Source: Mucilaginibacter sp. MD40
GTDB lineage: Bacteria > Bacteroidota > Bacteroidia > Sphingobacteriales > Sphingobacteriaceae
Direction of reading: 5' to 3'
Assembly: GCF_002288635.1 (NCBI RefSeq)
Contig: NZ_NRSW01000001.1
Span: 688,712 to 752,711, forward strand
Length of the DNA stretch: 64,000 nucleotides
Each line of letters opens with the position of its first letter. Within the stretch, counting starts at the first letter, position 1. The notes under the pieces are model-generated. The model made no database searches. It was not told the DNA's origin and worked only from the letters and a program-made list of their open reading frames with translations. Made by a program: the position numbers and the translations under genes. Below are positions 49,893 through 64,000 of the stretch, in pieces.

Positions 49893-51062
49893 TTAATACT
49901 GATCTTTAGAGAAATCAGCAAATAATAATTCCCACGCCAGCTTGAACCATATGATAGCCGGGGCATAAGCTTTTATGGCGTAGTTCTGCATCCAGATACG
50001 GGCTGGTTTAGGGAACGCGTCTGACGGGCCGAGGCCGGTAACTAGCAGCAGCAGAACAAGCATTACGATGTTAAACGCTGTAAACGGCTTTGGCTGCATC
50101 ATGATGTAGATAACCGCACCCGCAGTAGCGATAATAAAAGTGGGATGCTCGGATGCGGTGCTAAAAAGTACGATCATCATGAGTAATGAACACATCAACT
50201 GCAATTGGAATTTTAAGTAAGGGTATTGCTTCACCCGCAGCAAAGCGCCCGCAACACTTAGGGCACCCATTAATAAAAATGGCCAGTTCGGTATCGTACT
50301 ATCCTGGAAAAACCGCCTTACCATGCCCATTACACACCAGTCGAACCCGGTAGTGAGGCTTTGGTTGGTAAGGTTTTTAGACGTTAAAGCGGCGAACCAA
50401 TCTTTATAAGTTTGTATAAGAAAGCCCGGCCCGGATATAATCGCCGGCAAGCAAATCAGTACCACCAACCATATTACCGACCACAATATATATTTCGCCT
50501 TATTTTTTGAAAAGAAGAAAAAGGCCAGCCCCACTACAGGGTATATCTTCATCAGCGTACCTGCTATGGTAAAAAGCGTTGCGTATTGTTCTTTTTGCCG
50601 CTTTACCATTACAAAGCTAAGGATAACTATTGCCGCTATAATGGGGTTAAACTGCATATAATGGCTGGAGTTGGCAAACTCAATGGCGCATAATAGCAGG
50701 ATAATGGTTTTGGTTTTATTAGAAAATGGCAGCAAATGGATGGCCCATAAAAAAGCCGCGGCATTACCTACCTCCCACAATAAAAAACCCAGCCATTCGG
50801 GCATGAGCGATAGTGGCGCTATAAAAACCGTAAATAATGGGCCATAGATGTACACATCATAATACTCTGCCGGGTATAGCAGGTACAAATTTAAATGATC
50901 GCGAAAGTGGTAGAACGAAGTACGGAATATGATGTAGTTATTATCAATATGCCTGAAATACTTGAGCTGCCAGCAAAAGATAGCCACAGCAATGTAGAGG
51001 ATGCAAGTCCATTGGTAGCCGGTTAAACCCCAGAATTTTTTAGCAGAAATGCGTGCATCCAT
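49893..51062 (-). CDS. DUF2029 / GT87-like polytopic membrane protein
   Basis: A 389-residue inner-membrane protein with about nine or ten hydrophobic segments. The pattern FRTSFYHFRDHLNLYLLYPAEYYDVYIYGPLFTVFIAPLSLMP and later LTTGFDWCVMGMVRRFF resembles the GT87 polyprenol-linked mannosyl/glycosyl transferase family, where the Asp in the first loop is catalytic (here FRDHLNLY). Its substrate is unknown. I place the start at the ATG at 51062 (MDARISAKKFWG); a further in-frame ATG at 51107 abuts the upstream terminator. It is transcribed alone. Confidence 0.75.
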   Translation of the reverse strand: MDARISAKKFWGLTGYQWTCILYIAVAIFCWQLKYFRHIDNNYIIFRTSFYHFRDHLNLYLLYPAEYYDVYIYGPLFTVFIAPLSLMPEWLGFLLWEVGNAAAFLWAIHLLPFSNKTKTIILLLCAIEFANSSHYMQFNPIIAAIVILSFVMVKRQKEQYATLFTIAGTLMKIYPVVGLAFFFFSKNKAKYILWSVIWLVVLICLPAIISGPGFLIQTYKDWFAALTSKNLTNQSLTTGFDWCVMGMVRRFFQDSTIPNWPFLLMGALSVAGALLRVKQYPYLKFQLQLMCSLLMMIVLFSTASEHPTFIIATAGAVIYIMMQPKPFTAFNIVMLVLLLLVTGLGPSDAFPKPARIWMQNYAIKAYAPAIIWFKLAWELLFADFSKDQY

Positions 51063-51111
51063 ATCAGGAGATAAAATAAAGCAAAAAATACTTAAACCGG
51101 ATAGCATGAAA

Positions 51112-51143
51112 TAAAAAAGGCCATCCGTTTATGGGATGGCCTT
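51112..51143 (-). terminator. terminator of the 51163-51906 gene
   Basis: A 10-bp stem, AAGGCCATCC with GGATGGCCTT, followed on the minus strand by six T. It isolates the lipoprotein gene from the GT87-like gene. Confidence 0.85.
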
Positions 51144-51162
51144 GTATCTTACAGCCAATTTA

Positions 51163-51906
51163 TTATTTGTTGCCTTTATTGTGATGCTCAAACTCATGAG
51201 CTTCAAAAGCCAATATAACATTAGCAATTACACGGTTATAAATATTGGCGTTGCTGGTGCCGCTGATAATAATTGTACCGTTTGTACGTGTAGCCTGATC
51301 AAGCAAGCCTGCTGGAATACCCATTAATAATCTGTTTAAATGCAGGTTTATTTTAGATGTTACACCTGTAGTTGCGTCAACAGTTACGTCTTTTACTTCT
51401 GTTTTGATAATGGCGTTGTCATTGTAGTCAAACTCGATAGGTACAGCGGCTCCGCCAGTTGTGGTGAAAGTACCTTTTGCTGTAAGCGGAATATCGGTAC
51501 CTGATGATTTAGTCAATAAAATACTTAACTCAATCTCGCGGTAGTGGCCTGTATCAACCATGGCAACTATTGGTGATGAGCTTAAATTAAGCAGATCCAG
51601 GTTAGATACATTTTTTGTGGTTACCTCGGTTACCTTGCCGTTGCGTTTTGCTTCTAGTTTAAAACGGTTAACATTGGCAATTACTGATGACCATTTAATG
51701 CTGGCAGTAGTACCGATAACGGCATTTACTTCTATACCATTTGCAACAGCATTGGTAGCAACAGTAGCTTGTTGGTTATCAGCGGTTAACTGGAAGCCCA
51801 TTTCGGCTTGTGCAGTAGCTGTTGCATTTTTCTCTTTTGAGCAAGAGGTTAATAATGCGGTGCATATTAAAGCTGCAGCACCCAGGTTAAGGAAAGATTT
51901 TTTCAT
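51163..51906 (-). CDS. lipoprotein of unknown function
   Basis: A 247-residue exported lipoprotein. The signal peptide ends at LLTSCSKEKN, with lipid attachment at Cys22. The rest is Thr/Ala/Asn-rich and predicted beta (QATVATNAVANGIEVNAVIGTTASIKWSSV, IELSILLTKSSGTDIPLTAKGTFTTTGGAAVPIEF), with a His-rich end (FEAHEFEHHNKGNK) that might bind metal. It resembles DUF4382-type surface lipoproteins loosely. I do not recognise the family with confidence. It has its own terminator. Confidence 0.6.
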   Translation of the reverse strand: MKKSFLNLGAAALICTALLTSCSKEKNATATAQAEMGFQLTADNQQATVATNAVANGIEVNAVIGTTASIKWSSVIANVNRFKLEAKRNGKVTEVTTKNVSNLDLLNLSSSPIVAMVDTGHYREIELSILLTKSSGTDIPLTAKGTFTTTGGAAVPIEFDYNDNAIIKTEVKDVTVDATTGVTSKINLHLNRLLMGIPAGLLDQATRTNGTIIISGTSNANIYNRVIANVILAFEAHEFEHHNKGNK

Positions 51907-52148
51907 GAGTTATTATTCGGGGTTTAATTATAACCGTATTACGTTTAAAGGTAGAATAAAGGTTGCTTCAATTTTTGATTTTAATAAAAATTTAATGTGC
52001 ACGTAAAAGCCTAAAATTCTCCCGGAGGTAGTTTAAGTAATAAACTATTGCAGTAACCGCTATTGGGTTACAGAAATGTACCCCAAACAATGGGAAAAAG
52101 AAAATTTAAATTAATCTACAAAAACTATAGACATTATATAATATTTTA

Positions 52149-52156
52149 TATATTTG
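52149..52156 (+). promoter_or_regulatory. -7 box (TATATTTG) upstream of the SAM riboswitch
   Basis: An exact TAnnTTTG match that would start transcription about 52162, some 15 bases before the riboswitch P1 helix. The region upstream (51907-52148) is AT-rich and no gene was seen in it. Confidence 0.55.
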
Positions 52157-52176
52157 CACCCGTAACGTTCTTTAAA

Positions 52177-52280
52177 CTTATCCAGAAAGACCGAGGGAAT
52201 GGCCCTAAGACGTCTTAGCAACCTGTACATCAAATGTAAAAGGTGCTAATTCCTGCTCCTGTTATATGGAGAAAGATAAG
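52177..52280 (+). ncRNA. SAM-I (S-box) riboswitch
   Basis: The conserved core is complete: P1 CTTATC (52177-52182) pairs with GATAAG (52275-52280), then GAAAGACCGAGGGAATGGCC, TTAGCAACC and GGTGCTAATTCCTGC, ending GGAGAAAGATAAG. In this class SAM binding stabilises P1 and switches off the downstream genes. Downstream, ACTGTTAA (52299-52306) can pair either with TAAACAGT (52283-52290) or with TTAACAGT (52349-52356), which directly precedes the ATG at 52357. This suggests control of start-codon access rather than a terminator. Confidence 0.95.
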
Positions 52281-52298
52281 CATAAACAGTATCCAACT

Positions 52299-52356
52299 AC
52301 TGTTAACTCATTGCCTCGCTATCTGGTAAGTTAATAAAGACAAAAAAATTAACAGT
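52299..52356 (+). promoter_or_regulatory. putative expression platform of the SAM riboswitch
   Basis: ACTGTTAA at 52299-52306 is an exact complement of TTAACAGT at 52349-52356, which ends right before the start codon. A near copy, TAAACAGT at 52283-52290, competes for the same eight bases. No T-rich terminator is seen. Which pairing is favoured with SAM bound cannot be decided by eye. Confidence 0.55.
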
Positions 52357-53487
52357 ATGAAAATTTACCTGGATAACGCGGCCACAACACCATTAGCTAA
52401 AGAAGTATTTGAAGCAATGACTCCTTTTTACCTGCAGCATTTCGGTAATGCTTCATCTCAGCATGCTTTTGGCAGAGAGGTAAAAGCTACATTAGAACAT
52501 TGCAGGCAAACCATTGCAGGTTTGTTAAATGCACATCCGGATGAGATCATTTTTACATCGGGCGGCACCGAGGCTGACAATACGGCTATTCTATCGGCGG
52601 TAGAGGGCGCCGGGATACAAAACGTAATTACTACCCGTTTTGAGCACCATGCCGTACTGCATACCTTGCAACATCTGCAAAAAGAAGGAAAAATTACGCT
52701 GAACTATATAGAACACGATCATCTTGGCAGCCTAAACCTGCATCACCTGGAGCAATTACTCGAATCAAGTGAAAGAAGTTTTGTATCGGTTATGCACGCC
52801 AATAATGAGATAGGTAACCTTAACGATATAGAAAAAATTGCCGCCCTATGCGAACGTTATAACGCTATCTTCCACACCGATACAGTGCAGACAATGGGCC
52901 ACTATACCCATAACCTGCAACGGGTAAAAATACACTACCTGGCAGCATCGGCACATAAATTTCATGGCCCAAAGGGTGTTGGCTTTTTGTACTGCCGCAG
53001 GGGTGCCCCGCTAAGGCAATTGCTAAAAGGCGGTGGCCAGGAAGCCCGGTTGCGCGCAGGAACGGAAAATATTGCCGGCATTGTAGGCCTCACTAAAGCA
53101 CTTGAACTGGCTTATGAACATTTAGATAACCACCAGGCGTACATACAGGGTTTAAAGAGCCAATTGATTAACGGTCTGTTAAACCATGTACCTCATATTA
53201 CTTTTAACGGGCGATGTTCTAATGTCGATAAAAGTTTATACACCGTATTAAGTGTTTCCCTACCTGATGCCGGCACTGATCTGCTACGATGTTTAGACGA
53301 CCTTGGAATAGCCGTATCAGGCGGTAGCGCCTGCTCGGCCGGGGCTACTTCGCATGTGCTTAGCGCGCTAAAAACCGCTCCGGGTAAACATACCATTCGC
53401 TTTTCATTCAGTCGGTTTAACACGCCGCAGGAAATTGATCAGGTGGTTGCCTCGTTAACCGGCATTTTACAACCGGTAGCTGCCTAA
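52357..53487 (+). CDS. cysteine desulfurase family protein (NifS/IscS-like)
   Basis: A 376-residue PLP-dependent class V aminotransferase-fold enzyme that would move sulfur from cysteine onto its own Cys and release alanine. MKIYLDNAATTPLAKEV opens it, PLP ligands are in TSGGTEADN, HTDTVQTMGH and the Lys of ASAHKFHGPKGVGF, and the active-site Cys is in SGGSACSAGATSHVL near residue 325. It lies directly behind a SAM riboswitch, unusual for housekeeping iscS, and upstream of a Cys-rich leader and susCD, so a role in use of imported organosulfur is likely. It is not next to isc or suf genes. Confidence 0.9.
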   Translation: MKIYLDNAATTPLAKEVFEAMTPFYLQHFGNASSQHAFGREVKATLEHCRQTIAGLLNAHPDEIIFTSGGTEADNTAILSAVEGAGIQNVITTRFEHHAVLHTLQHLQKEGKITLNYIEHDHLGSLNLHHLEQLLESSERSFVSVMHANNEIGNLNDIEKIAALCERYNAIFHTDTVQTMGHYTHNLQRVKIHYLAASAHKFHGPKGVGFLYCRRGAPLRQLLKGGGQEARLRAGTENIAGIVGLTKALELAYEHLDNHQAYIQGLKSQLINGLLNHVPHITFNGRCSNVDKSLYTVLSVSLPDAGTDLLRCLDDLGIAVSGGSACSAGATSHVLSALKTAPGKHTIRFSFSRFNTPQEIDQVVASLTGILQPVAA

Positions 53488-53540
53488 AGGCAAAATCAAA
53501 CGCTTAAAAAGCCAAATCGCAATATGTACTTATTTAAATC

Positions 53541-53636
53541 ATGAAAACCACATTTACTACAGCTTCTTTAAATCGCTATTCTATCGATCCGCGCAACTTC
53601 ACTTATGGCCAGTGTTGTTGCTGTTTCCGCGCGTAA
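53541..53636 (+). CDS. leader peptide with four consecutive Cys codons
   Basis: A 31-codon open frame, beginning MKTTFTTASLNRYS and ending YGQCCCCFRA, with codons 25-28 all Cys (53613-53624). It starts 53 bases after the desulfurase stop and ends about 107 bases before susC. A perfect 12-bp hairpin follows (53682-53693 with 53703-53714). By analogy with amino-acid attenuator peptides it is a candidate sensor of charged tRNA-Cys controlling susC-susD. Poly-cysteine leader ORFs are known in mycobacteria; I know of no such description for this setting, but I could not search. Confidence 0.7.
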   Translation: MKTTFTTASLNRYSIDPRNFTYGQCCCCFRA

Positions 53637-53681
53637 TCTGCCCATAAGCGGCCAATTGACAATTTATTTATTCATCTGCAT

Positions 53682-53719
53682 CCGGTAATAAGTCGCCTGG
53701 CTACTTATTACCGGCCAGG
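53682..53719 (+). promoter_or_regulatory. hairpin downstream of the Cys leader, upstream of susC
   Basis: A perfect stem CCGGTAATAAGT (53682-53693) with ACTTATTACCGG (53703-53714) and a 9-base loop. The loop bases CCTGGC (53696-53701) are complementary to GCCAGG (53714-53719), which would give a pseudoknot or a competing helix. The sequence after the stem is only GTATTATTT, so a classical terminator is not certain. ACTTAT at 53601-53606, inside the peptide, can pair with the left arm. Confidence 0.6.
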
Positions 53720-53743
53720 GTATTATTTCCAAAAAAGAATATC

Positions 53744-56700
53744 ATGTTAAAAATTTACAAGTTTTTGCTGGCAATATGGTTGCCGGTATTATTTTTTCAA
53801 ACAGCAAATGCACAAGGCATTAAAGTAAGCGGTACGGTAACCGCCCAGTCTGACGGGCAGCCATTACCAGGTGTAAGCGTTGCCGTACAAGGCGGCAACA
53901 CCGGCACCCAAACAGATGTACAGGGGCGCTTTACGCTCACCGCTAAAGTGAACGACGTATTACAAATATCCTACCTGGGCTTCGTTACACAGCGTATTAC
54001 GGTTTCAGAAACGCAGGCTCCTTTAAAGATCGTGTTTGTAGAAGCTCCCAACTCGCTTAATGAAGTGGTAGTTACGGCGCTCAACATCAATAAGGATAAA
54101 AAATCATTGGGCTATTCTGTACAGGGCCTTAAATCAAAAGACATATCAGAGGCTAAGGAAACCAACCTGGTGAACGCGCTGGCAGGTAAAATTGCAGGTG
54201 TACAGGTTACCAACAGCCAGGGCGATATGGGGTCTTCGCGAATTGTTATACGTGGAGAAACGTCGATATCCGGTAATAACCAGCCACTTTTTGTGGTAGA
54301 TGGCGTTATTGTAGACAACTCACAGTTCCTGGGAACAAATGGTTCAAGGGACTTTCAGAATGCCATATCTGATCTGAATACTGAAGATATTGAATCTATA
54401 AGCGTGCTCAAGGGGCCGAACGCGGCTGCATTATATGGTTACCGTGCTGCTGCAGGTGTAATTCTTATTAAAACCAAAACCGGCAAGGGCGCGAAAGGAT
54501 TGGGCATTACCATCAACTCCAACACTTCTTTTGCAACACTAAAGGTGTTCCCTGATTATCAAAACTCATACGGACAAGGCTCAAACGGCAGGTTCAGCTA
54601 TGTTGATGGCAAGGGCGGAGGTATAAATGACGGGGTTGATGAAAGCTGGGGGCCGCGCCTTGATGGTCGCCTTATCCCGCAATTCTATTCCAATGGGCAG
54701 GCGGTGCCGTTTGTGGCCCATCCTAACAACGTACGTGATTTTTTCCGCACCGGGGTTACGCTTAACAATGGGGTAGCACTGGCAGGCAGCTCTGAAAAGT
54801 TTGACTACCGCATATCTTACAACAACCTACACCAAACTGGTGTGGTGCCTAATTCTTCGCTGGGCCGTAACTCATTTCTATTGAATGCCACCTTTAGGCC
54901 AACGCCAAAGCTAACGGTTACTACCATTGCCAATTATATTAAGGACGACGCGGGCAACCTGCCCGGCGCCTATGGCCGAAGGGCAACCAGCACCATGCTG
55001 CAGTTTACCTGGTTTGGCCGGCAGGTTGACATTAACCAGTTAAAAAACTACAGGAATGCCGACGGAAGCACCTTTAACTGGAACAATAGTTATTACAGCA
55101 ACCCTTATTTTATCGCTTACGAAAATACGGTTAGTCAGTTTAAAAACCGCCTTATTGGTAGTGTTGAACTAAATTACAAGATCATAAAAGGGCTCTCGGC
55201 AAACTTACGTACCGGTACCGATTTCTATAACGACCGCCGAAAAATCAAGGTTGCTTACGGCACCAGTGGCACACCTTTCGGTTCATATGAAGAAGATGCT
55301 TACTACGTAAACGAAACCAACACAGAAGGCCGCCTGCAATACACCAAAAAACTCAACAAGGACTTTTCTCTTGATGCCTTTGTGGGTGGGAACATCAGCA
55401 CGGTTACCAATGAGCAGAACGACCAGATAGCGCCAAAGTTGGCGGTTGCCGGGTTATATACGCTCAGCAATTCCCGCGATCCGCTGGTATCATCCAACTA
55501 TTATGGTAAATTAAAAACCTACAGCTACTTCGCCTCGGCCCAGATCGGGTTTCGTGATTATGCCTTTTTAAACGTTACAGGCCGTAACGACTGGTCATCT
55601 ACGCTGCCTGCAGCAAATCTATCCTATTTTTATCCTTCTGTTAACGGTAGTCTTGTGCTATCACAGGCCCTGGATATCAAAAGCGATGCGCTGAGTTATT
55701 TAAAACTCAGAGGAGGGTGGTCAAAAGTAGGAAAGGCTACCACACCTTACCAGTTGATTAACACTTATAATTTTACAGCTCCTTTTAACGGAAACCCACA
55801 ACAAAGTGCCGCCAATATTGACCTTAACCCCAACCTTAAGCCTGAAACAACCACATCCGGCGAGGCAGGCTTTGAGGCCGGGTTTTTTAAAGACCGTGTG
55901 TGCCTTGATGTAAGCGTTTATAACACCAACAGTACTAACCAGATCTTGAGTGTTGATGTGAGCTCAAGCACAGGCTATACCCAAAAATTGATCAACGGAG
56001 GCCGTATCAACAATAAGGGACTGGAAGCACAACTGAGTGTAACACCTGTAAAAACCACCAATTTTAGCTGGGATGTAAGTGTCAATTACTCACTTAACCG
56101 TAGCAAAGTTGTATCGCTTGATGCAGAAGGCCGGCTGCAGAGTTATGTGCTTGGCACCAACCGCACCGTGCAGGTGTTAGCGGCGGTAGGCAAACCCTAC
56201 GGCACCCTGTTTGGCACAGCCTATCAGCGAGACGCATCAGGAAACATTATTATTGATAATAGCGGCGTACCGGTAATTAACCCTGCTAAACAATACCTCG
56301 GTAAATTTACACCCGACTTTTTAGGCGGTATAACCAACAGCTTTAACTACAAAGGCATAAACCTGAGTGTATTGGTTGACGCTCGTTTTGGTGGCTCTAT
56401 TTATTCTAATACCAACCGAACCGGTACTTACACAGGGGTACTTGCTTCTACATTGCCGGGCCGTGGTGCCGAGAACGGTGGCCTGTCTTATTACTATCCG
56501 GCGAACAACACTTCCGCCTCCGCTGTACAGGTGGCTACAGGTGCCAGCGCGCCTAATGGCGAAACCGTGTATGACGATGGCATGGTTTGGAAAGGCGTAA
56601 AAGCTGATGGCACACCTAACACCAAAGTAATACCTGCCCAATCTTATTACAAAGGCTTTACCAATGTAGATGAAGCTTTTGTATACAGCGCTTCTTACGT

Positions 56701-56932
56701 AAAACTGCGCGAAGTTAAGCTGGGTTACACCTTCCCTGCAAGCTGGGTGAAAGGCATAGGTCTGCAATCGGCTACCGTATCAGTAGTTGGCCGCAACCTG
56801 TGGATCATTCATAAAAAAGTGCCCAATATTGACCCTGAAACCGCCTTTAACACCGGCAACGGCCAGGGCCTTGAAGACCTTACCTTACCAACGGTGCGTA
56901 ACATAGGCTTTAACGTTAACCTTAAATTTTAA
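53744..56932 (+). CDS. SusC/RagA family TonB-dependent outer-membrane transporter
   Basis: A 1062-residue outer-membrane transporter. The signal peptide ends ...QTANAQ (about 24). A carboxypeptidase-D-like domain (about 28-110, VSGTVTAQSDGQPLPGVSVAVQG) precedes the plug domain with the SusC motif VTALNINKDKKSLGYSVQGLKSKDI, LAGKIAGVQVTNSQGDMGSSRIVIRG and PLFVVDGVIVDNS, and the barrel ends in FNVNLKF. Partner SusD starts 4 bases after the stop. The position behind a cysteine leader and a SAM-regulated desulfurase suggests import of a sulfur-containing nutrient rather than glycan, although no specificity can be read. Confidence 0.93.
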   Translation: MLKIYKFLLAIWLPVLFFQTANAQGIKVSGTVTAQSDGQPLPGVSVAVQGGNTGTQTDVQGRFTLTAKVNDVLQISYLGFVTQRITVSETQAPLKIVFVEAPNSLNEVVVTALNINKDKKSLGYSVQGLKSKDISEAKETNLVNALAGKIAGVQVTNSQGDMGSSRIVIRGETSISGNNQPLFVVDGVIVDNSQFLGTNGSRDFQNAISDLNTEDIESISVLKGPNAAALYGYRAAAGVILIKTKTGKGAKGLGITINSNTSFATLKVFPDYQNSYGQGSNGRFSYVDGKGGGINDGVDESWGPRLDGRLIPQFYSNGQAVPFVAHPNNVRDFFRTGVTLNNGVALAGSSEKFDYRISYNNLHQTGVVPNSSLGRNSFLLNATFRPTPKLTVTTIANYIKDDAGNLPGAYGRRATSTMLQFTWFGRQVDINQLKNYRNADGSTFNWNNSYYSNPYFIAYENTVSQFKNRLIGSVELNYKIIKGLSANLRTGTDFYNDRRKIKVAYGTSGTPFGSYEEDAYYVNETNTEGRLQYTKKLNKDFSLDAFVGGNISTVTNEQNDQIAPKLAVAGLYTLSNSRDPLVSSNYYGKLKTYSYFASAQIGFRDYAFLNVTGRNDWSSTLPAANLSYFYPSVNGSLVLSQALDIKSDALSYLKLRGGWSKVGKATTPYQLINTYNFTAPFNGNPQQSAANIDLNPNLKPETTTSGEAGFEAGFFKDRVCLDVSVYNTNSTNQILSVDVSSSTGYTQKLINGGRINNKGLEAQLSVTPVKTTNFSWDVSVNYSLNRSKVVSLDAEGRLQSYVLGTNRTVQVLAAVGKPYGTLFGTAYQRDASGNIIIDNSGVPVINPAKQYLGKFTPDFLGGITNSFNYKGINLSVLVDARFGGSIYSNTNRTGTYTGVLASTLPGRGAENGGLSYYYPANNTSASAVQVATGASAPNGETVYDDGMVWKGVKADGTPNTKVIPAQSYYKGFTNVDEAFVYSASYVKLREVKLGYTFPASWVKGIGLQSATVSVVGRNLWIIHKKVPNIDPETAFNTGNGQGLEDLTLPTVRNIGFNVNLKF

Positions 56933-56936
56933 CATC

Positions 56937-58376
56937 ATGAAATCAAGATATATATCTTCAATTATACTTTTAACCGCGTTACTTGGCACGGCATCATGCA
57001 AGAAAGACCTTGTAGACATTAACCAAAACCCTAACGCATCGCAAACGGCTCAGCCGGATTATCTGTTGACAGGTGCCATTAAAAACACGGCCGATACCTA
57101 TTGGGGGACAGCTAATAATATGGATGCCAGCCTGCTTTTTGTGCAATACTGGGCTAAAATACAATATACCGATCCGGACAGGTATATCTACGCTAATACC
57201 GCTTTCCAGGAGTTATGGACCGTAGGCTATAGTCGCAGCATTGTAAACCTTAACCAGATCATTAAACTGGCTGATGCGCAGGCTAATCCTAATTATAAAG
57301 GCGTGGCGTTAGTATTGCGTTCGTGGGTTTTTCAACTGCTAACCGATGCTTATGGAGATATTCCTTACAGCCAGGCGGTTAGTATTAAGCAGTACCTTAC
57401 TCCAGCTTATGATAAACAGAAAGATGTGTACAATGCCCTGTTGGATGATCTTAAAACGGCACAGGGCCTGTTAAATACATCGGGGCCGGCTATAGCAGGC
57501 GATGTGATATACAACGGCAATATAGCGTCATGGAAAAAATTTGCCAACTCTTTACGTCTGCGTATTGCGCTGCGCATAGCCGACCGCGACGCGGATAAAG
57601 CCAAACAGGCAATAGCCGATATACTGGCCAATGGCAGCGGTTACATCTCGGCGAATAGCGAAACAGCGCAGTTAAACTACGTAGCATCGCCTAACCAGAA
57701 CCCCATAAGCAACCTATTTGATACGCGTGACGATTACCGCATCAGCAAAACCATTGTTGACCGCCTATTCGCCCTCAACGATCCGCGTTTACCGGTATAT
57801 GCCAGCAAAACAAAGGATGCCACCGCGCAAACCTATGTGGGTATTCCGAATGGGCTATTAGTGGGCGATGCCAGCAACCTCGGTTTTACCAAAACCTCTA
57901 AACCGGGCACCTATTTCCTGGCGCCAACAGCGCCCGCGGTAATACTAAGCTATTCGGAATTATTGTTTGACAGGGCCGAGGCCGCCGCACGCGGTTTTAC
58001 TACTGATAATGCTGCCGACCTGTATAAGCAGGCCATTACGGCGTCTCTTAAACAATATGGTATTGCCGATAACGATATTAACACCTACCTGGCCCAGGCC
58101 GCGGTACAATACGATGCCGGTAACTATAAAAAAGCGATAGGCAACCAAAAATGGCTGGCCTTGTTTGGTCAAGGTCTGGAAGCTTTCGCGGAGTGGCGCC
58201 GGCTGGATTATCCGCAATTGCAGCCCGCGGTTGCCGGTACGCTTGGCGGCAAGCTGCCACAACGGTTCATATACCCCGGTACAGAACAATCACTCAACGG
58301 GACTAATTACCAAGCGGCAGTAGCCAGCCAGGGGCCCGATGTGTTAACCACCAAACTCTGGTTTGATGTTAATTAA
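56937..58376 (+). CDS. SusD/RagB family outer-membrane lipoprotein
   Basis: A 479-residue lipoprotein with Cys21 in LLGTASCKKDLVDINQNPNASQ as the lipid site. It belongs to the SusD-like_2 type: SPDYLLTG-like opening (QPDYLLTGAIKNTAD), tetratricopeptide-like helices (YKGVALVLRSWVFQLLTDAYGDIPYSQAV) and C-terminal WLALFGQGLEAFAEWRRLDYPQL and TKLWFDVN. It captures substrate at the cell surface and closes over the SusC channel. A strong terminator lies just past its stop, ending the sulfur-linked unit. Confidence 0.93.
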   Translation: MKSRYISSIILLTALLGTASCKKDLVDINQNPNASQTAQPDYLLTGAIKNTADTYWGTANNMDASLLFVQYWAKIQYTDPDRYIYANTAFQELWTVGYSRSIVNLNQIIKLADAQANPNYKGVALVLRSWVFQLLTDAYGDIPYSQAVSIKQYLTPAYDKQKDVYNALLDDLKTAQGLLNTSGPAIAGDVIYNGNIASWKKFANSLRLRIALRIADRDADKAKQAIADILANGSGYISANSETAQLNYVASPNQNPISNLFDTRDDYRISKTIVDRLFALNDPRLPVYASKTKDATAQTYVGIPNGLLVGDASNLGFTKTSKPGTYFLAPTAPAVILSYSELLFDRAEAAARGFTTDNAADLYKQAITASLKQYGIADNDINTYLAQAAVQYDAGNYKKAIGNQKWLALFGQGLEAFAEWRRLDYPQLQPAVAGTLGGKLPQRFIYPGTEQSLNGTNYQAAVASQGPDVLTTKLWFDVN

Positions 58377-58380
58377 ACCA

Positions 58381-58415
58381 AACAACAATGGCCGCTAATT
58401 GCGGCCATTGTTGTT
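58381..58415. terminator. bidirectional terminator between susD and the kdp operon
   Basis: A perfect 15-bp stem, AACAACAATGGCCGC with GCGGCCATTGTTGTT, and a 5-base loop. It serves the converging susD and kdp-linked kinase genes. Confidence 0.9.
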
Positions 58416-58436
58416 ATCATACATCACGTCCATATG

Positions 58437-60188
58437 CTAAACTCCCGCAGGCAGGCTAAAGCCAAAGGTACTGCCTTCGCCAATGGCGCTTTTTACCCAT
58501 ATGCGGCCGTTCTGGGCCTCAATAAAATCTTTAGAGATAGCCAGGCCCAGGCCCGATCCCGATTTGTTCTGCCCGTCTGTAGGCACCTGGAAGTAGCGGT
58601 CAAACAGGCGTTTCTGGTATTGCTCGTCAATACCTTTACCCGTATCTTTTACCAAAAACTCCACACTGTTGCCTTTATTTAAGATACTGATAGTAACTTT
58701 TGATTTTTCGGCGCTGTAACGTAAGGCGTTCGACAAGAAGTTTACCAGCACCCAGGCAGTTTTTTCCACATCGGCATTAACACCGGGTAATTTTTCGTCT
58801 TTAACCAATTCCAGCTTTACCCCTTTTTGTTCGGCCTGGAAATTCACCGCAGCTATAGCATAATCAACGATCTTTTGCGGCTCAACAGGCACAAAATTAA
58901 GTTGTATGTTACCGGTTTCTACCTGCGAGAGCTCCAGTAACTCGCTGGTGATCTTTAGCAGACGATCGCTGTCATCATTAATGTGTTCCAACAGTTGCTG
59001 CTGCTCCGCGTTCATTTCGCCTACACGCTTATCTTTCATAAGTTTAAGGCTCATCTTTATAGATGAAATAGGCGTTTTCAACTCATGCGATATGGTGGCA
59101 ATAAAGTTGGTTTTGGCCTCATCACGCTCTTTAAACTCGGTAATATTGCGCAGGATATATACCTTACCTGCCGATTTTTTAGCGATACTAATAGCTTGCG
59201 TTTGTCCCGGCGATAAATTAGGCACATTGATCTCCCTGCTTTCTAACTCAAAGAAGGAGTCTTTACCATCTATCACTATCTTAAAAGGTTTACCGGTACG
59301 GCTATCGTGAATGATGGATTTAAACAGATCGTTATTTTTAGCTACATCTTCAACCAAACAGCCTTCAACCTTGCTGTTACCCAGATTAAGCACATTTTTA
59401 GCCGTAGTGTTAATGAATAGTATTTCCTGCTTCTCGTTAACACCCACAATAGCATCGTGCATTTGCTCAATAATAGTTTCAATGCGTAGCTTGTCAGACA
59501 TGATCTTGGAGATATTGCTGTTCTCCCACTCATTTAGCCTGTCGGCCATTTCATTAAAGGCGTTGGCTACCTCGGCAAATTCATCGCTCTGCGTAAACTC
59601 AATATGCTGGTTATAATTTCTGGGGCCAATGGTACGTATTCCTGTAAGTAAAGCTTTAAGCGGGTTAAAAATAATGCCGGGGAAATTAACACTGAAACTA
59701 AACAACACCAAAAAGGTGAACGCGCCAACCAAACCCAGCAACACCAATGATCTGTCTACCGCTTTACGGGCAGCATCATTCTTATGTACAATGGCCTGCA
59801 TGTTCAGCTTCTCAATACTTAGCAGGTGGCGCCGTATCTGCCGTTCCAGGTCCTGTTCTTCCTCAGCCGTATGTTTTCCCTGCATTTGGTCAAAAGTGTT
59901 CTTTAAAGCGGCTACCGCCTGGGCCTCACCACGCTCGGTGATGTTTTTTTCTTCTTTGGTTAGTTGCGCGTTAAACGCCTCCATAGCGCCGGAGTTGAGC
60001 GGCAGGGTATTCTCATCCAATATGCTACGCATATCCCGGCAGTAACTCAGGCTCTCGTAGTTATCTTTCAGGATTATTTTGGCGCTGTTGGCTATACGGT
60101 TCATATACAGCACGCAGGTAGCGCCAAAAAACAGCACCACTATAAATAAAAAGCCGAAGCCTATGCGCAGTTTATTTTTTACTTTCAT
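58437..60188 (-). CDS. HAMP/PAS sensor histidine kinase of the kdp operon
   Basis: A 583-residue membrane kinase. Two membrane segments (about 8-28 and 155-178) flank a periplasmic helical domain, followed by HAMP (about 178-232), a PAS domain (MHDAIVGVNEKQEILFINTTAKNVLNL), then H box FIATISHELKTPISSIKMSL, N box LVNFLSNALRYS and G boxes DTGKGIDEQYQKRLFDRYF, GSGLGLAISKDF. The gene's ATG overlaps the TGA of the kdpD-N gene by 4 bases. In E. coli both parts are one KdpD protein; here the kinase is a separate polypeptide. No kdpE is in the window. Confidence 0.88.
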   Translation of the reverse strand: MKVKNKLRIGFGFLFIVVLFFGATCVLYMNRIANSAKIILKDNYESLSYCRDMRSILDENTLPLNSGAMEAFNAQLTKEEKNITERGEAQAVAALKNTFDQMQGKHTAEEEQDLERQIRRHLLSIEKLNMQAIVHKNDAARKAVDRSLVLLGLVGAFTFLVLFSFSVNFPGIIFNPLKALLTGIRTIGPRNYNQHIEFTQSDEFAEVANAFNEMADRLNEWENSNISKIMSDKLRIETIIEQMHDAIVGVNEKQEILFINTTAKNVLNLGNSKVEGCLVEDVAKNNDLFKSIIHDSRTGKPFKIVIDGKDSFFELESREINVPNLSPGQTQAISIAKKSAGKVYILRNITEFKERDEAKTNFIATISHELKTPISSIKMSLKLMKDKRVGEMNAEQQQLLEHINDDSDRLLKITSELLELSQVETGNIQLNFVPVEPQKIVDYAIAAVNFQAEQKGVKLELVKDEKLPGVNADVEKTAWVLVNFLSNALRYSAEKSKVTISILNKGNSVEFLVKDTGKGIDEQYQKRLFDRYFQVPTDGQNKSGSGLGLAISKDFIEAQNGRIWVKSAIGEGSTFGFSLPAGV

Positions 60189-61318
60189 GATAATATCACT
60201 AAATCTGTTTGTTTCGCCGCTATATTTTTAAGCAATTCGTTAAATACGGTTGTCCGCAAAATAACCTGGAAGAGGCTCAAATGCGGCTTACCAATACAAA
60301 TAGTAGTTATTTCGCGCTCGTCGGCCACCTGCATAATGGTTTGGGTGATCTTATCGCTTTTCAGCTTTATCACCTCGGCACCAAGCTCTGTGGCCAGTTT
60401 AAAATTATTAATTAAGTGGCGTTGTTTATCGAGTTTGATGCGCTCCATGCTTTCGTCACTGCTTTGCACATACAACACAATCCAGGGCGAACGGTAGTAG
60501 GACGCCAGCCTGGCCGTTTTTCGTATCACGATCTTGGCCGTTTCCGCATTGGATGATATGCAGGCCAGGAAACGCTCGGGCCGCAGCTTAATTTGCTTGG
60601 GTACCTCAATATCAATCTTACGCTCCAGGTGATGGGCCACTTCTTTCAGCGCTATCTCGCGCAGTTGTAATATCTTATCGTTCTGGAAAAAGTTTTGCAG
60701 GGCCCGCTCTATTTTTGCTTTCTCATATATCTTGCCTTCCTTTAGCCGGTCAATAAGCTCGTCGGCAGTCAAGTCGATATTCACCACCTCATCTGCCATC
60801 TGCAAAATTTTATCGGGTATTCTTTCTGTTATGCTGATACCGGTTATTTCTTCTATCTCTTCGTTTAGGCTTTCCAGGTGCTGGATGTTTACGGCGGTGA
60901 TCACGCTGATACCGGCTTCCAGTATATCTACCACATCCTGCCAGCGCTTGGCATTCTTGCTCCCTTCAATATTGCTGTGGGCAAGTTCATCCACAATTAC
61001 CACCTCGGGGTGGCGGTTAAGAATAGCTTGCAGGTCCATTTCTTCTAATTCCTTGCCCTTATAAAAGATATGGCGCCTTGGGATAACGGGTAAGCCTGCT
61101 AGTAAAGCATGTGTTTCCGCCCGGTTATGCGTTTCAATATACCCTATCTGTATACCAATGCCGTTACGCATCAGCGCATGCGCTTCCTGTAGCATACGGT
61201 AGCTTTTACCCACCCCGGCGCTCATGCCTATATAAATTTTAAGCTTACCACGGCGCGAGCGTTTTACCAGGTCGATAAAATCTTTTACAGAATTACCACT
61301 ACTTGCGTCTTCGGGCAT
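60185..61318 (-). CDS. kdpD: KdpD N-terminal sensor domain protein
   Basis: A 377-residue protein corresponding to the cytoplasmic N-terminal part of E. coli KdpD only. The KdpD domain spans about 25-235, with Walker A YIGMSAGVGKSYRML near 32 and Walker B-like VVIVDELAHSNIEGS near 105, followed by a universal-stress-protein domain (about 250-377, FLACISSNAETAKIVI). Membrane, histidine kinase and ATPase-catalytic parts of full KdpD are absent. It is coupled by a 4-base overlap to a histidine kinase that could serve as its output. Confidence 0.92.
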   Translation of the reverse strand: MPEDASSGNSVKDFIDLVKRSRRGKLKIYIGMSAGVGKSYRMLQEAHALMRNGIGIQIGYIETHNRAETHALLAGLPVIPRRHIFYKGKELEEMDLQAILNRHPEVVIVDELAHSNIEGSKNAKRWQDVVDILEAGISVITAVNIQHLESLNEEIEEITGISITERIPDKILQMADEVVNIDLTADELIDRLKEGKIYEKAKIERALQNFFQNDKILQLREIALKEVAHHLERKIDIEVPKQIKLRPERFLACISSNAETAKIVIRKTARLASYYRSPWIVLYVQSSDESMERIKLDKQRHLINNFKLATELGAEVIKLKSDKITQTIMQVADEREITTICIGKPHLSLFQVILRTTVFNELLKNIAAKQTDLVILS

Positions 61319-61378
61319 ATCTTTTATTTTTTAAACTGTAAGATCCGGGAAGTTTGTTCACCGCCCGGATCAATTAAA

Positions 61379-62461
61379 TTAAAAAGAAACAGCAAAACTC
61401 GCGGTAACCAACGGACTGTTGTTGGTGAAACCTGTCTGTTTTTGAAATATCTTGTCTTTACTATCGTAAACTTTTCCTTCCAGGCGTATCAGCGCGTTCT
61501 TAATCGGGGCGTAATCCACGTTCAGCGAATACCCTTTAGTATCAAAGCCGTGAGGCGTACCGGTGGCAATAAACACACCGTTTTTATCCTGGTAGTACTC
61601 AAACCTGCCGGCCATTGCCCACTTTTCCGCAAGCTGATAACGGGCTATGGCTACCGGCGATATAATGTGGTTATAATCGCTGCTTCCCTTCGCCTTTTGC
61701 TGTACACCGTAATCAAACCCGGCGGTTAAGCCAAATTTATCAGTTAATTGGAATATGCCATAAAAGTTATGGTATACACGGCGCACCTGCACCGAGTCGG
61801 GCCCTTCGGCGCCAATATAATTACTGTAGTTTAACGTAATATTATCAATCAGTTTATAAGCCACCTGTAAACCGCCGGCGGGCTTGCTGTTGCCATCCTG
61901 CCGGTTAATGCGCTGCCAGCCGTTCAGGTACAGGCCGCTTAAAGTGAGCTTACCGTCATCGGTGGTGTAAGTAAGCTTGGCGCCTGTTTCATAATAAGGT
62001 GTATTTTCTGAGGCGATATTACGGGTAAGTACCCAGCAATCTTTTGAAATAGCGCTTTCAAAGCCTATATGTGAGGCGAAGATACCGGCATCAAACCAAA
62101 GGTTGGCGCTTTTGGATAGCTTGACACCCGCGTTGGCCTCAAAAACGTTCTTGAATACACCCTGTTCTGATGCCAGATTGGCGTTAGCGTAAGTACCTGC
62201 CATTAGCGCCAGGTTTGCCCTTATATTCCCGTTATCATAATTGGCTTTTATAAAGCCCAGGTTAAGGTTAACCTCATTATGGCGGTTATGCGAATACACA
62301 AAAGACGGACGGGTGTTGTTAGCAGGGCGGTTAAAATCAAACCCGTAATACAATTCGGCATAGCCGCTGATGGTTAAATTGCCGCTATTTTTAAGGCTAT
62401 CCTGAGCGAATAATGGTTTACCGCAAAGGATAAGGAGATATATGATTAAAAGTTTTTTCAT
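61379..62461 (-). CDS. BBP2-type outer-membrane porin in the kdp operon
   Basis: A 360-residue outer-membrane beta-barrel protein. The signal peptide ends GKPLFAQ (about 20). YAELYYGFDFNRPANNTRPSFVYSHNRHNEVNLNLGFIKANY is the typical opening of the OmpL-like BBP2 porin family, the barrel strands follow, and the C terminus is TASFAVSF ending in Phe. In Bacteroidetes kdp clusters a porin of this type sits between kdpC and kdpD, suggesting passage of potassium across the outer membrane. Confidence 0.85.
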   Translation of the reverse strand: MKKLLIIYLLILCGKPLFAQDSLKNSGNLTISGYAELYYGFDFNRPANNTRPSFVYSHNRHNEVNLNLGFIKANYDNGNIRANLALMAGTYANANLASEQGVFKNVFEANAGVKLSKSANLWFDAGIFASHIGFESAISKDCWVLTRNIASENTPYYETGAKLTYTTDDGKLTLSGLYLNGWQRINRQDGNSKPAGGLQVAYKLIDNITLNYSNYIGAEGPDSVQVRRVYHNFYGIFQLTDKFGLTAGFDYGVQQKAKGSSDYNHIISPVAIARYQLAEKWAMAGRFEYYQDKNGVFIATGTPHGFDTKGYSLNVDYAPIKNALIRLEGKVYDSKDKIFQKQTGFTNNSPLVTASFAVSF

Positions 62462-62477
62462 TTTGAGTATCTAACAG

Positions 62478-62545
62478 GTGCCGGCCGGTAATAAAGCATG
62501 GGCATAAATTACATTCACTATCGGATAGTAAATACCGGCCGGCAC
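62478..62545 (-). promoter_or_regulatory. long-loop hairpin between kdpC and the porin gene
   Basis: A perfect 13-bp GC-rich stem, GTGCCGGCCGGTA (62478-62490) with TACCGGCCGGCAC (62533-62545), and a 42-base loop. No T tract follows. It could stall transcription or protect mRNA ends within the kdp operon. Confidence 0.5.
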
Positions 62546-62550
62546 TCGTA

Positions 62551-63102
62551 TTATTTAAGTTCGTCTAAAGCCACATTCAATTTCAACACATTCACTTTTT
62601 CGGGGCCAAAAAGCGGTTTTTCGGTATGTTCCTTTACCAGCACGGCAACCTTCTGCTCATCAAGCTTGCGAAATTGCGCTACGCGTTTTACCTGTATCTG
62701 AGCGCCTGCCGGAGAAATATCCGGATCAAGGCCACTGCCTGAAGCGGTTACCATATCAGCAGGGATATCCGAGCGTTTAAGATAAGGGTGGTATTTCAGC
62801 AAGGTATCTATACGGCTGTTTACCTCTTTCAGGTAATCCGGGTTGCTTGGGCCTTTATTAGAGCCCGCTGAACCGGCCGCGTTATAACCCACAGCCGACG
62901 GGCGGCTCCAGAAGTACTGCGGTTTATCAAACTTTTGCCCTTCATTGGCATAGCCAACTATCTTACCATTAAGGGTAATGGTTTCCCCATTACCTTTTCC
63001 TTTAGAGAATTTACCTGCAAAGGAAATTACAACGGGATATATGATGCATAACAATACGGTTAATACTATGGTTAACCTGATAGATTGTATGAGCGTTTTC
63101 AT
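62551..63102 (-). CDS. kdpC: potassium-transporting ATPase subunit KdpC
   Basis: A 183-residue inner-membrane protein with a single N-terminal membrane helix (SIRLTIVLTVLLCIIYPVVISF) and a periplasmic domain with YFWSRPSAVGYNAAGSAGSNKGPSNPDYLKEV and DMVTASGSGLDPDISPAGAQIQVKRVA, the conserved segments of KdpC. It stabilises the KdpFABC pump. Its start is 27 bases after the kdpB stop on the same strand. Confidence 0.95.
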   Translation of the reverse strand: MKTLIQSIRLTIVLTVLLCIIYPVVISFAGKFSKGKGNGETITLNGKIVGYANEGQKFDKPQYFWSRPSAVGYNAAGSAGSNKGPSNPDYLKEVNSRIDTLLKYHPYLKRSDIPADMVTASGSGLDPDISPAGAQIQVKRVAQFRKLDEQKVAVLVKEHTEKPLFGPEKVNVLKLNVALDELK

Positions 63103-63129
63103 GATTTTTACTTGTTAATATTTAGCAGC

Positions 63130-64000
63130 TTATATAAAGTAGGCTATTAAAAGGTCAATTAATTTTATACCAATGAACGGTGCAATTACGCCACCTATAC
63201 CATAAATAAGCAGGTTGCGGCGCAGCAGCGCGCTGGCACCTATAGGTTTATATTCCACACCCTTTAATGCCAGCGGTATCAGCATTGGGATAATAATGGC
63301 GTTGAATATCACTGCTGACAGGATAGCGCTCTCGGGGCTGTGCAGGTGCATGATATTGATAGATTGCAAAGCCGGTATAGAAGCGATAAACAGCGCCGGA
63401 ACAATAGCGAAATACTTAGCCACGTCATTAGCGATGGAAAAGGTGGTAAGCGTACCACGTGTAATGAGCAACTGCTTACCAATTTCAACAATCTCTATGA
63501 GTTTGGTTGGGTCGTTATCCAGGTCAACCATGTTACCGGCTTCTTTTGCAGCTTGTGTACCGCTATTCATGGCAACGCCTACATCAGCCTGGGCAAGTGC
63601 AGGGGCATCGTTGGTACCATCGCCCATCATGGCAACCAGTTTACCCGCAGCCTGCTCATGTTTTATGTATTTCATTTTATCTTCCGGGCGTGCTTCGGCA
63701 ATAAAGTCGTCCACACCTGCTTTATCGGCAATAAACTTGGCGGTAAGCGGGTTATCACCGGTTACCATTACCGTTTTGATACCCATTTTGCGCAGGCGTT
63801 CAAAACGTTCAGCTATGCCGGGTTTAATAATATCCTGTAATTCTATTACGCCTATCACCTTTTCGTTTTGAGATACTACTAATGGGGTACCGCCATTTGA
63901 CGATATAGCCTTTACCCTATCTTCTATCGCGGTATCAAACTGGTTACCGGCATTAATGGTAAGGTTGCGGATAGCATCAAACGCGCCTTTACGGATGCGT
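63130..64000 (-). CDS. kdpB: potassium-transporting ATPase KdpB, C-terminal part
   Basis: This frame is open to the right edge of the window and lacks its N-terminal ~390 residues. Visible are the nucleotide/phosphorylation-domain segment [27 protein letters not shown], the hinge [48 protein letters not shown] and the C-terminal transmembrane segments ([17 protein letters not shown]). It is the P-type ATPase subunit of the high-affinity Kdp potassium pump. Its apparent start at 63858 (GTG) is only internal, since the conserved frame continues upstream to 64000. kdpA would lie beyond the window. Confidence 0.96.

Follow-up and report, generated by a model that had tools for sequence, protein, structure and literature searches.

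A cysteine-ending leader peptide gene, probably cysteine-sensing, lies behind a SAM riboswitch and before a SusCD transporter operon in Mucilaginibacter

We analyzed a stretch of 64,000 nucleotides from Mucilaginibacter sp. MD40, which we call the window, and focused on a sulfur-related locus on its + strand. A SAM riboswitch aptamer (RF00162, 52175-52282; covariance-model match of 85.2 bits, gathering score 44.4) is followed by a 376-aa cysteine desulfurase of the NifS/IscS type (52357-53487; TIGR03402 at 393 bits, below the cut-off of 530.75) and then by a 31-codon leader peptide ORF, MKTTFTTASLNRYSIDPRNFTYGQCCCCFRA (53541-53636, with the stop at 53634-53636), whose position and Cys run are kept in relatives. 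The run, read from the ORF, consists of four Cys codons, TGT TGT TGC TGT (53613-53624). Behind the ORF lies a perfect 12-bp hairpin with a 9-nt loop and no U-tract after it (53682-53714; CCGGTAATAAGT-CGCCTGGCT-ACTTATTACCGG). The next gene, susC (53744-56932), encodes a SusC/RagA TonB-linked outer membrane protein (TIGR04056, 638 bits) and contains, at codons 8-15, a terminator-like hairpin of 10 pairs (53766-53788) that together with the following TTATTTTTTC spans 53766-53798. The gene after it, susD (56937-58376), encodes a SusD-like_2 lipoprotein (PF12771, 390 bits), and the adjacency of a TIGR04056 SusC gene and a SusD-like lipoprotein gene identifies the pair as a SusCD transporter. Beside susD, on the - strand (58437-63999), are genes resembling what we take to be the Kdp potassium system and its sensor kinase. 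An earlier note made from this sequence had described the 31-codon ORF with its four Cys codons, the hairpin and susC in this order, and all of them are present exactly at the coordinates it gave.

The SAM riboswitch, desulfurase, leader, susC and susD likely share one transcript. A promoter-like TAnnTTTG box (52149-52156, + strand), matching the consensus quoted in a passage of PMC9723704, directly precedes the riboswitch and is the sole + strand match within 50414-60710, so that a single transcript from riboswitch to susD is likely. Across the window such boxes occur at chance frequency (66 matches versus 65.6 expected), and the box is therefore weak evidence alone.

We find that the leader recurs in front of the orthologous transporter genes. 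SusD relatives of 74-84% identity were found in 48 of the 119 other genomes of the genus that were searched, with the next matches at 40% or less, and the nearest named relatives of the window locus are Mucilaginibacter. Two of the 48 loci (L067 and L078) end before the susC start; the other 46 and the window make 47 testable loci. Our strict rule asks for an ATG ORF of at least 8 codons whose stop lies 20-330 nt before susC and which has at least three Cys within its last 10 codons, CC included. Leaders satisfying this rule are present at 43 of the 47 same-genus loci, as against 8 of 940 dinucleotide shuffles of those regions, and before none of the 24 other SusC genes of the window's genome. 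The earlier note had named the absence of the peptide or its Cys run from close relatives as the finding that would speak against it, and the opposite was found. The four misses are L059, whose ORF ends in CYC, L064 and L073, which have a single terminal Cys, and L082, which has no leader.

The encoded peptides mostly start with MKT or MNT and then diverge, many of them ending in MxxMxCCC. Their N-termini do not align, while in most the Cys run is kept at or near the stop, and the codons used are mixed (94 TGT, 72 TGC). Comparison with the nearest relative, Mucilaginibacter sp. 44-25 (L223), reveals 3 differences in the 96 nt of the ORF, all of them at synonymous third positions. Taken together, the alignments indicate that the Cys run is conserved in place and in amino acid while the rest of the peptide varies. 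Clustered codons for one amino acid in a short upstream ORF, a sequence feature of leader-peptide attenuators, are present here.

We also looked for the leader outside these orthologous loci. At the paralogous SusC loci of the genus (7 of 7 fetched; SusD about 35-40% identical), no C-terminal Cys run was seen by eye. A direct peptide search of 60 genomes returned, besides the window's own peptide, weak matches alone (best E 0.0019); the leader homologs were reached through SusD and SusC matches, not through this search. NCBIfam has no family for the four leader peptides searched, and the three Rfam matches to the leader region are all far below gathering scores. Four-Cys codon tracts have 60 matches in the genome, and among the 30 examined there is, besides the window's, one place outside long ORFs (overlapping L299/L300). 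That TGY tract (L299, 1440-1520) reads as the shared terminator of convergent genes, with the loop masked.

The neighborhood of the leader is rich in sulfur-related elements. Rfam scans place a same-strand SAM riboswitch upstream at 39 of 47 same-genus loci (38 of the 46 fetched, plus the window), and the eight loci without one in the fetched stretch comprise two with a divergent riboswitch and six with none. The two divergent cases are L064 and L073, the same loci that have a single terminal Cys codon. At nine same-genus loci the riboswitch lies 294-390 nt before susC; another 27 have it at a distance of 960-1108 nt upstream of susC, and an AhpC-TSA/Redoxin-type (TlpA-like) gene occupies the space between. 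By eye, the TlpA-like gene (L053-L099) mostly encodes a WCSVC motif and a signal-peptide-like N-terminus, and two members have domain hits. Both a desulfurase and a TlpA-like gene are found between riboswitch and susC at L083 and L088, and the window has the desulfurase alone where those 27 loci have the TlpA-like gene. The earlier note had taken a SAM-riboswitch-controlled cysteine desulfurase upstream as its reason to expect cysteine as the signal; riboswitch and desulfurase are both there, but the desulfurase does not hold as a fixed partner, with a match in just 6 of 49 fetched loci at 30-74% identity and in varying positions. Outside the genus, a SAM riboswitch was found at 2 of the 11 Hufsiella and Chitinophagaceae-type loci scanned, so the leader need not be accompanied by one in the examined stretch. 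The SAM riboswitch, desulfurase and TlpA-like neighbors point to a tie between the locus and sulfur metabolism.

Judging by the upstream regions, similar leaders precede orthologs in Pedobacter, Hufsiella and Chitinophagaceae, and weaker ones are found elsewhere. In the Pedobacter-like sister genus, a SusC match at E <= 1e-200 is present in 66 of 119 genomes, and these matches yielded 50 upstream regions (30 + 20 loci). Twelve of the 50 pass the strict Cys rule versus 5 of 1000 shuffles; the others show a single Cys at the end, an R-M-C motif or no such feature. Many leaders of the clade nearest L131 end in FRMRMPC-stop, FRMRGAC-stop and similar sequences. Four loci (L183, L184, L189 and L190) have a SAM-riboswitch-like stretch, yet no Cys-ending leader by eye. 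In a set of 80 named loci that overlaps the unnamed set and includes three without a susC start, 48 of 77 pass the strict rule versus 16 of 1540 shuffles. For the Hufsiella, Chitinophagaceae-type and similar loci the figure is 7 of 13 versus 1 of 260 shuffles. The passing ends are HSCCCCCC in Hufsiella, NSCCCS in Ferruginibacter, MRCCCMHCA in Chitinophagaceae bacterium DXS, MRCCCMC and QCCCMHSSCIC in Segetibacter, NCRCCC in Deminuibacter and SPCCCCCSAY in Sediminibacterium; the six failures comprise two Ferruginibacter with shorter ends (SCCSSTK, SCCF) and four loci without a convincing leader.

Shorter forms are found at greater distance. In a third family (f54), a single genus includes seven genomes whose SusC matches at 58-59%, and these have a mini-ORF before susC that reads MKKRMCC or MKKRMCCR in four cases and, more weakly, MKKRMCSK, MKKRMHSC and MKKRMHS in three (by eye). 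Behind the MKKRM mini-ORF, L314-L321 except L320 also have, by eye, a hairpin like CCATTTCTG-TTGCAG-CAGAAATGG with no U-tract. A fourth family has an ORF ending in DIRMCITNPCC in L134, and its relative L177 is without a leader. In five more distant homologs (L135-L139; SusD 40-47%), no Cys-ending leader was seen by eye.

We next consider how the leader might act on susC. The earlier note had offered the 12-bp hairpin, with its loop paired to the 3' flank of the stem, as a switch. The loop sequence CCTGG (53696-53700) is indeed complementary to CCAGG (53715-53719), but a pseudoknot on top of the full 12-bp stem is hardly feasible; the full stem leaves no nucleotides to span it, and the pairing is therefore at most an alternative hairpin. 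The switch itself finds no support: the hairpin has no U-tract, was seen by eye in no relative except the near-identical L223, and is part of no switching structure that we could find. Its sequence occurs once in the window. The 107-nt spacer between leader and susC has a folding z of -2.42, which 5 of 200 shuffles equal or better, and differs from that of L223 at 1 of 107 positions, changes too few to provide a test of hairpin conservation. A helix around the Cys codons, CTTATGG (53602-53608) with CCATAAG (53642-53648), was rejected, being broken twice in L223 (53606 and 53646). Consensus folding of the spacer within each of four groups pointed to stems before susC. Recurring spacer elements were also seen by eye in L061, L072, L131, L132, L148 and L163, with AATTCTTTACA in some and ATTGCTWTGCCC-like sequences in others.

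A candidate for an output step is in a clade of the sister genus. In 14 of 30 loci of the Pedobacter-like clade, an intrinsic terminator contains the leader's TGT TA(A/G) in its 5' arm; an example is L163, with AGCCTGTTAAAATTGCTCCATTTTAACAGGCT-TTTTT at -15.4 kcal/mol. Terminators with a combined score of -10 or better are found in 19 of 30 clade regions versus 10 of 180 shuffles, while the other 20 Pedobacter-like regions show no excess (1 of 20 versus 4 of 120 shuffles). A 9-pair consensus extends over 20 aligned loci of the 30, which were picked by eye for the terminator pattern; within this set the T-tract is broken in L147, L148, L172 and L173, and L159 comes to its stop ahead of the Cys codon. 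Double-sided changes are absent from all the pairs, and the case for this terminator is therefore one of geometry and not of covariation. Since the last Cys codon and the stop lie inside the terminator, stalling of the ribosome could turn on the operon in this clade.

In the window, no U-tract terminator was found between leader and susC, and neither was a terminator with a competing antiterminator between ORF and susC. The reading as a cysteine attenuator before a SusCD pair, as the earlier note had it, stands for the conserved Cys run and the sulfur-linked locus and falls short at the terminator and antiterminator in the window. Among the same-genus loci the excess of terminators is slight, with 14 of 47 regions against 51 of 282 shuffles. 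Additionally, anti-Cys pairing between the last 7 codons plus stop and the next 60 nt is no better than in shuffles (mean z -0.04, n = 46), antiterminator pairing is likewise not above shuffles (mean z 0.09 and -0.26, n = 46), and stalling of the ribosome is predicted to make the susC start more accessible in 7 and less accessible in 8 of 46 loci, which gives no support for masking.

Rho-dependent termination might provide the output instead: a released ribosome would expose naked RNA to Rho and a stalled one would cover it. Cys-run leaders near the stop and without terminators have been predicted for actinobacterial cys operons, with Rho suggested as the terminating factor, in a passage of PMC1262725, and the window spacer, in which no intrinsic terminator was found, would fit such a scheme. 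However, C-over-G richness of the post-leader spacers is not above that of control SusC upstream regions (C/G > 1.3 in 23 of 46 versus 15 of 24), and the Pedobacter clade has an intrinsic terminator instead. We regard Rho as a possible but doubtful route.

A different account of the sensor, which we consider rather unlikely, is a nascent-chain arrest peptide whose C-terminal residues (often R-M-x..C by the stop) would stall the ribosome from within the exit tunnel on a sulfur metabolite and not for lack of charged tRNA-Cys. In the Pedobacter-like and f54/g61 relatives the run is down to one or two Cys and R-M is often kept, as in FRMRMPC-stop, IRMCMELCCSS-stop and MKKRMCCR-stop. Of 127 candidate leaders (from 134 distinct regions), 44 have RM among their final 16 residues, a count to be read with a candidate picker that favored RM; in 35 of these 44 the Arg is encoded by CGA, a rare codon, as against 84 of 1468 background Arg codons. 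Against this, R-M is missing from the window peptide and from most same-genus leaders, the latter keeping Cys runs of varying length, and CGAATG may be kept as an RNA sequence and not as residues. The hexamer CGAATG (Arg-Met) is common to many leaders outside the genus (L146-L175, L192, L195, L314-L321), and it might act by arresting the ribosome, through a slow codon or as a signal at the RNA level.

The output could also lie inside susC, where the hairpin at 53766-53788 with its U-rich tail would end transcription early unless susC translation starts promptly, the leader tuning this coupling. The hairpin has 10 pairs, and 43 of 76 relatives with the same SusC type have hairpins of -4 kcal/mol or better in this region of susC, versus 77 of 760 synonymous shuffles, although these relatives are not independent; 39 of the 43 are in register. 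Among the genome's other SusC genes, 4 of 24 have comparable intragenic hairpins. A scan of 1.75 kb for terminator-like sites found 2 against 1.9 expected by chance, so the susC site is not significant alone. Moreover, pairing between the spacer and the hairpin arms is not above shuffles, a stalled ribosome produces no switching (the hairpin is lower in 9 and higher in 8 of 46 loci), and the hairpin may merely tune translation initiation. We find this an improbable output for the leader. Lastly, we consider it very improbable that the Cys run is no regulator and belongs instead to an ORF that arose by chance or to a small protein that binds metals or thiols: CCCC could bind metal and some relatives lack the run (L082 and, by eye, L183, L184, L189 and L190), but the ORF is fixed in position before one SusCD family and absent before other SusC genes, and in the majority of same-genus loci the Cys run stays close to the stop or directly at it while the N-termini cannot be aligned.

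We propose that 53541-53636 is probably the gene of a cysteine-sensing regulatory leader peptide, likely acting in series with the SAM riboswitch, for a SusCD transporter of a sulfur nutrient. The sensor side of this proposal, a Cys-ending leader before one SusCD family, is well supported by the comparative sequence evidence; the translation of the leader, its response to cysteine, the shared transcript, the direction of control and the transporter substrate are what we infer. When charged cysteinyl-tRNA is plentiful, the ribosome would clear the Cys run, end at the stop and leave, and with the ribosome gone transcription into susC would be cut short. When cysteine is scarce, the ribosome would wait on the Cys codons, the operon would be read through and the SusCD transporter would be made. 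The terminator of the Pedobacter clade would be blocked by a ribosome that pauses at the final Cys codon or at the stop. The SAM riboswitch, upstream on the same strand, would be the probable first gate on the same mRNA, so that full expression would need both low SAM and low cysteine. The transporter itself probably imports a sulfur-containing nutrient, perhaps cysteine-containing peptides or disulfides.

This arrangement can be compared with known systems. It resembles the actinobacterial cys leaders in having a short ORF with a Cys run near its stop, before a sulfur-related operon and with no obvious terminator, and it differs from them in being in Bacteroidota, before an outer-membrane SusCD pair and probably inside an operon behind a SAM riboswitch. 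Cysteine-dependent control by Cys-run ORFs in M. smegmatis is attributed to Canestrari et al. 2020 in passages of PMC9031893 and PMC9094748. The mycobacterial Cys leaders are described as leaderless and as preceding other genes; here the sole nearby + strand TAnnTTTG box lies 1.4 kb upstream of the ORF, which would tend to speak against a leaderless arrangement.

In attenuators of the trp, his and leu type, a related operon is preceded by a leader ORF that carries the control codons. The locus described here shares the control codons in a leader ORF, and the Pedobacter-clade terminator overlaps the control codon; unlike those attenuators, the window has no competing hairpin set that we could find, and the control codons are at or near the ORF end. 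As in other SAM-I riboswitch (RF00162) systems, a full aptamer lies upstream on the same strand and probably on the same transcript. Unlike the usual case, it appears to be joined in series by another sulfur sensor, one based on a peptide, and a gene often separates the two.

For the transporter, the nearest solved SusC structure by sequence is BT_2264 (E 9.7e-125), part of BT_2263/BT_2264, a peptide-binding SusCD of Bacteroides thetaiotaomicron. The window SusD differs in this respect, its nearest solved structure being 5j5u, a different protein from BT_2263. Oligopeptide ligands are mentioned for the Bt2261-64 structures in a passage of PMC7782687. For the window's SusCD, a peptide or disulfide is perhaps the substrate.

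In Bacteroidota, a passage of PMC9723704 on Flavobacterium psychrophilum makes a general remark on leader-peptide attenuation before amino-acid operons, and one of PMC7366714 comments on short ORFs within long B. thetaiotaomicron 5' UTRs. In the open-licence literature searched we recognized nothing on Cys leaders before SusCD or in Bacteroidota.

We also advance, as a tentative and less likely extension, that the SAM riboswitch and the Cys-ending (often R-M-x..C-stop) leader form two serial sulfur sensors on a single mRNA, a logic gate on an outer-membrane importer. Under this extension the leader may sense a sulfur metabolite directly, as an arrest peptide, and the leaders in several Bacteroidota families would mark SusCD systems whose imports are organosulfur nutrients and not glycans.

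The usual reading of SusCD pairs is that they import glycans, and for many of them no substrate is known. If our proposal is true, a Cys-sensing leader behind a SAM riboswitch would be an independent clue, readable from sequence, to a SusCD family for sulfur nutrients, and poly-Cys leader control, known from actinobacteria, would extend to Bacteroidota.
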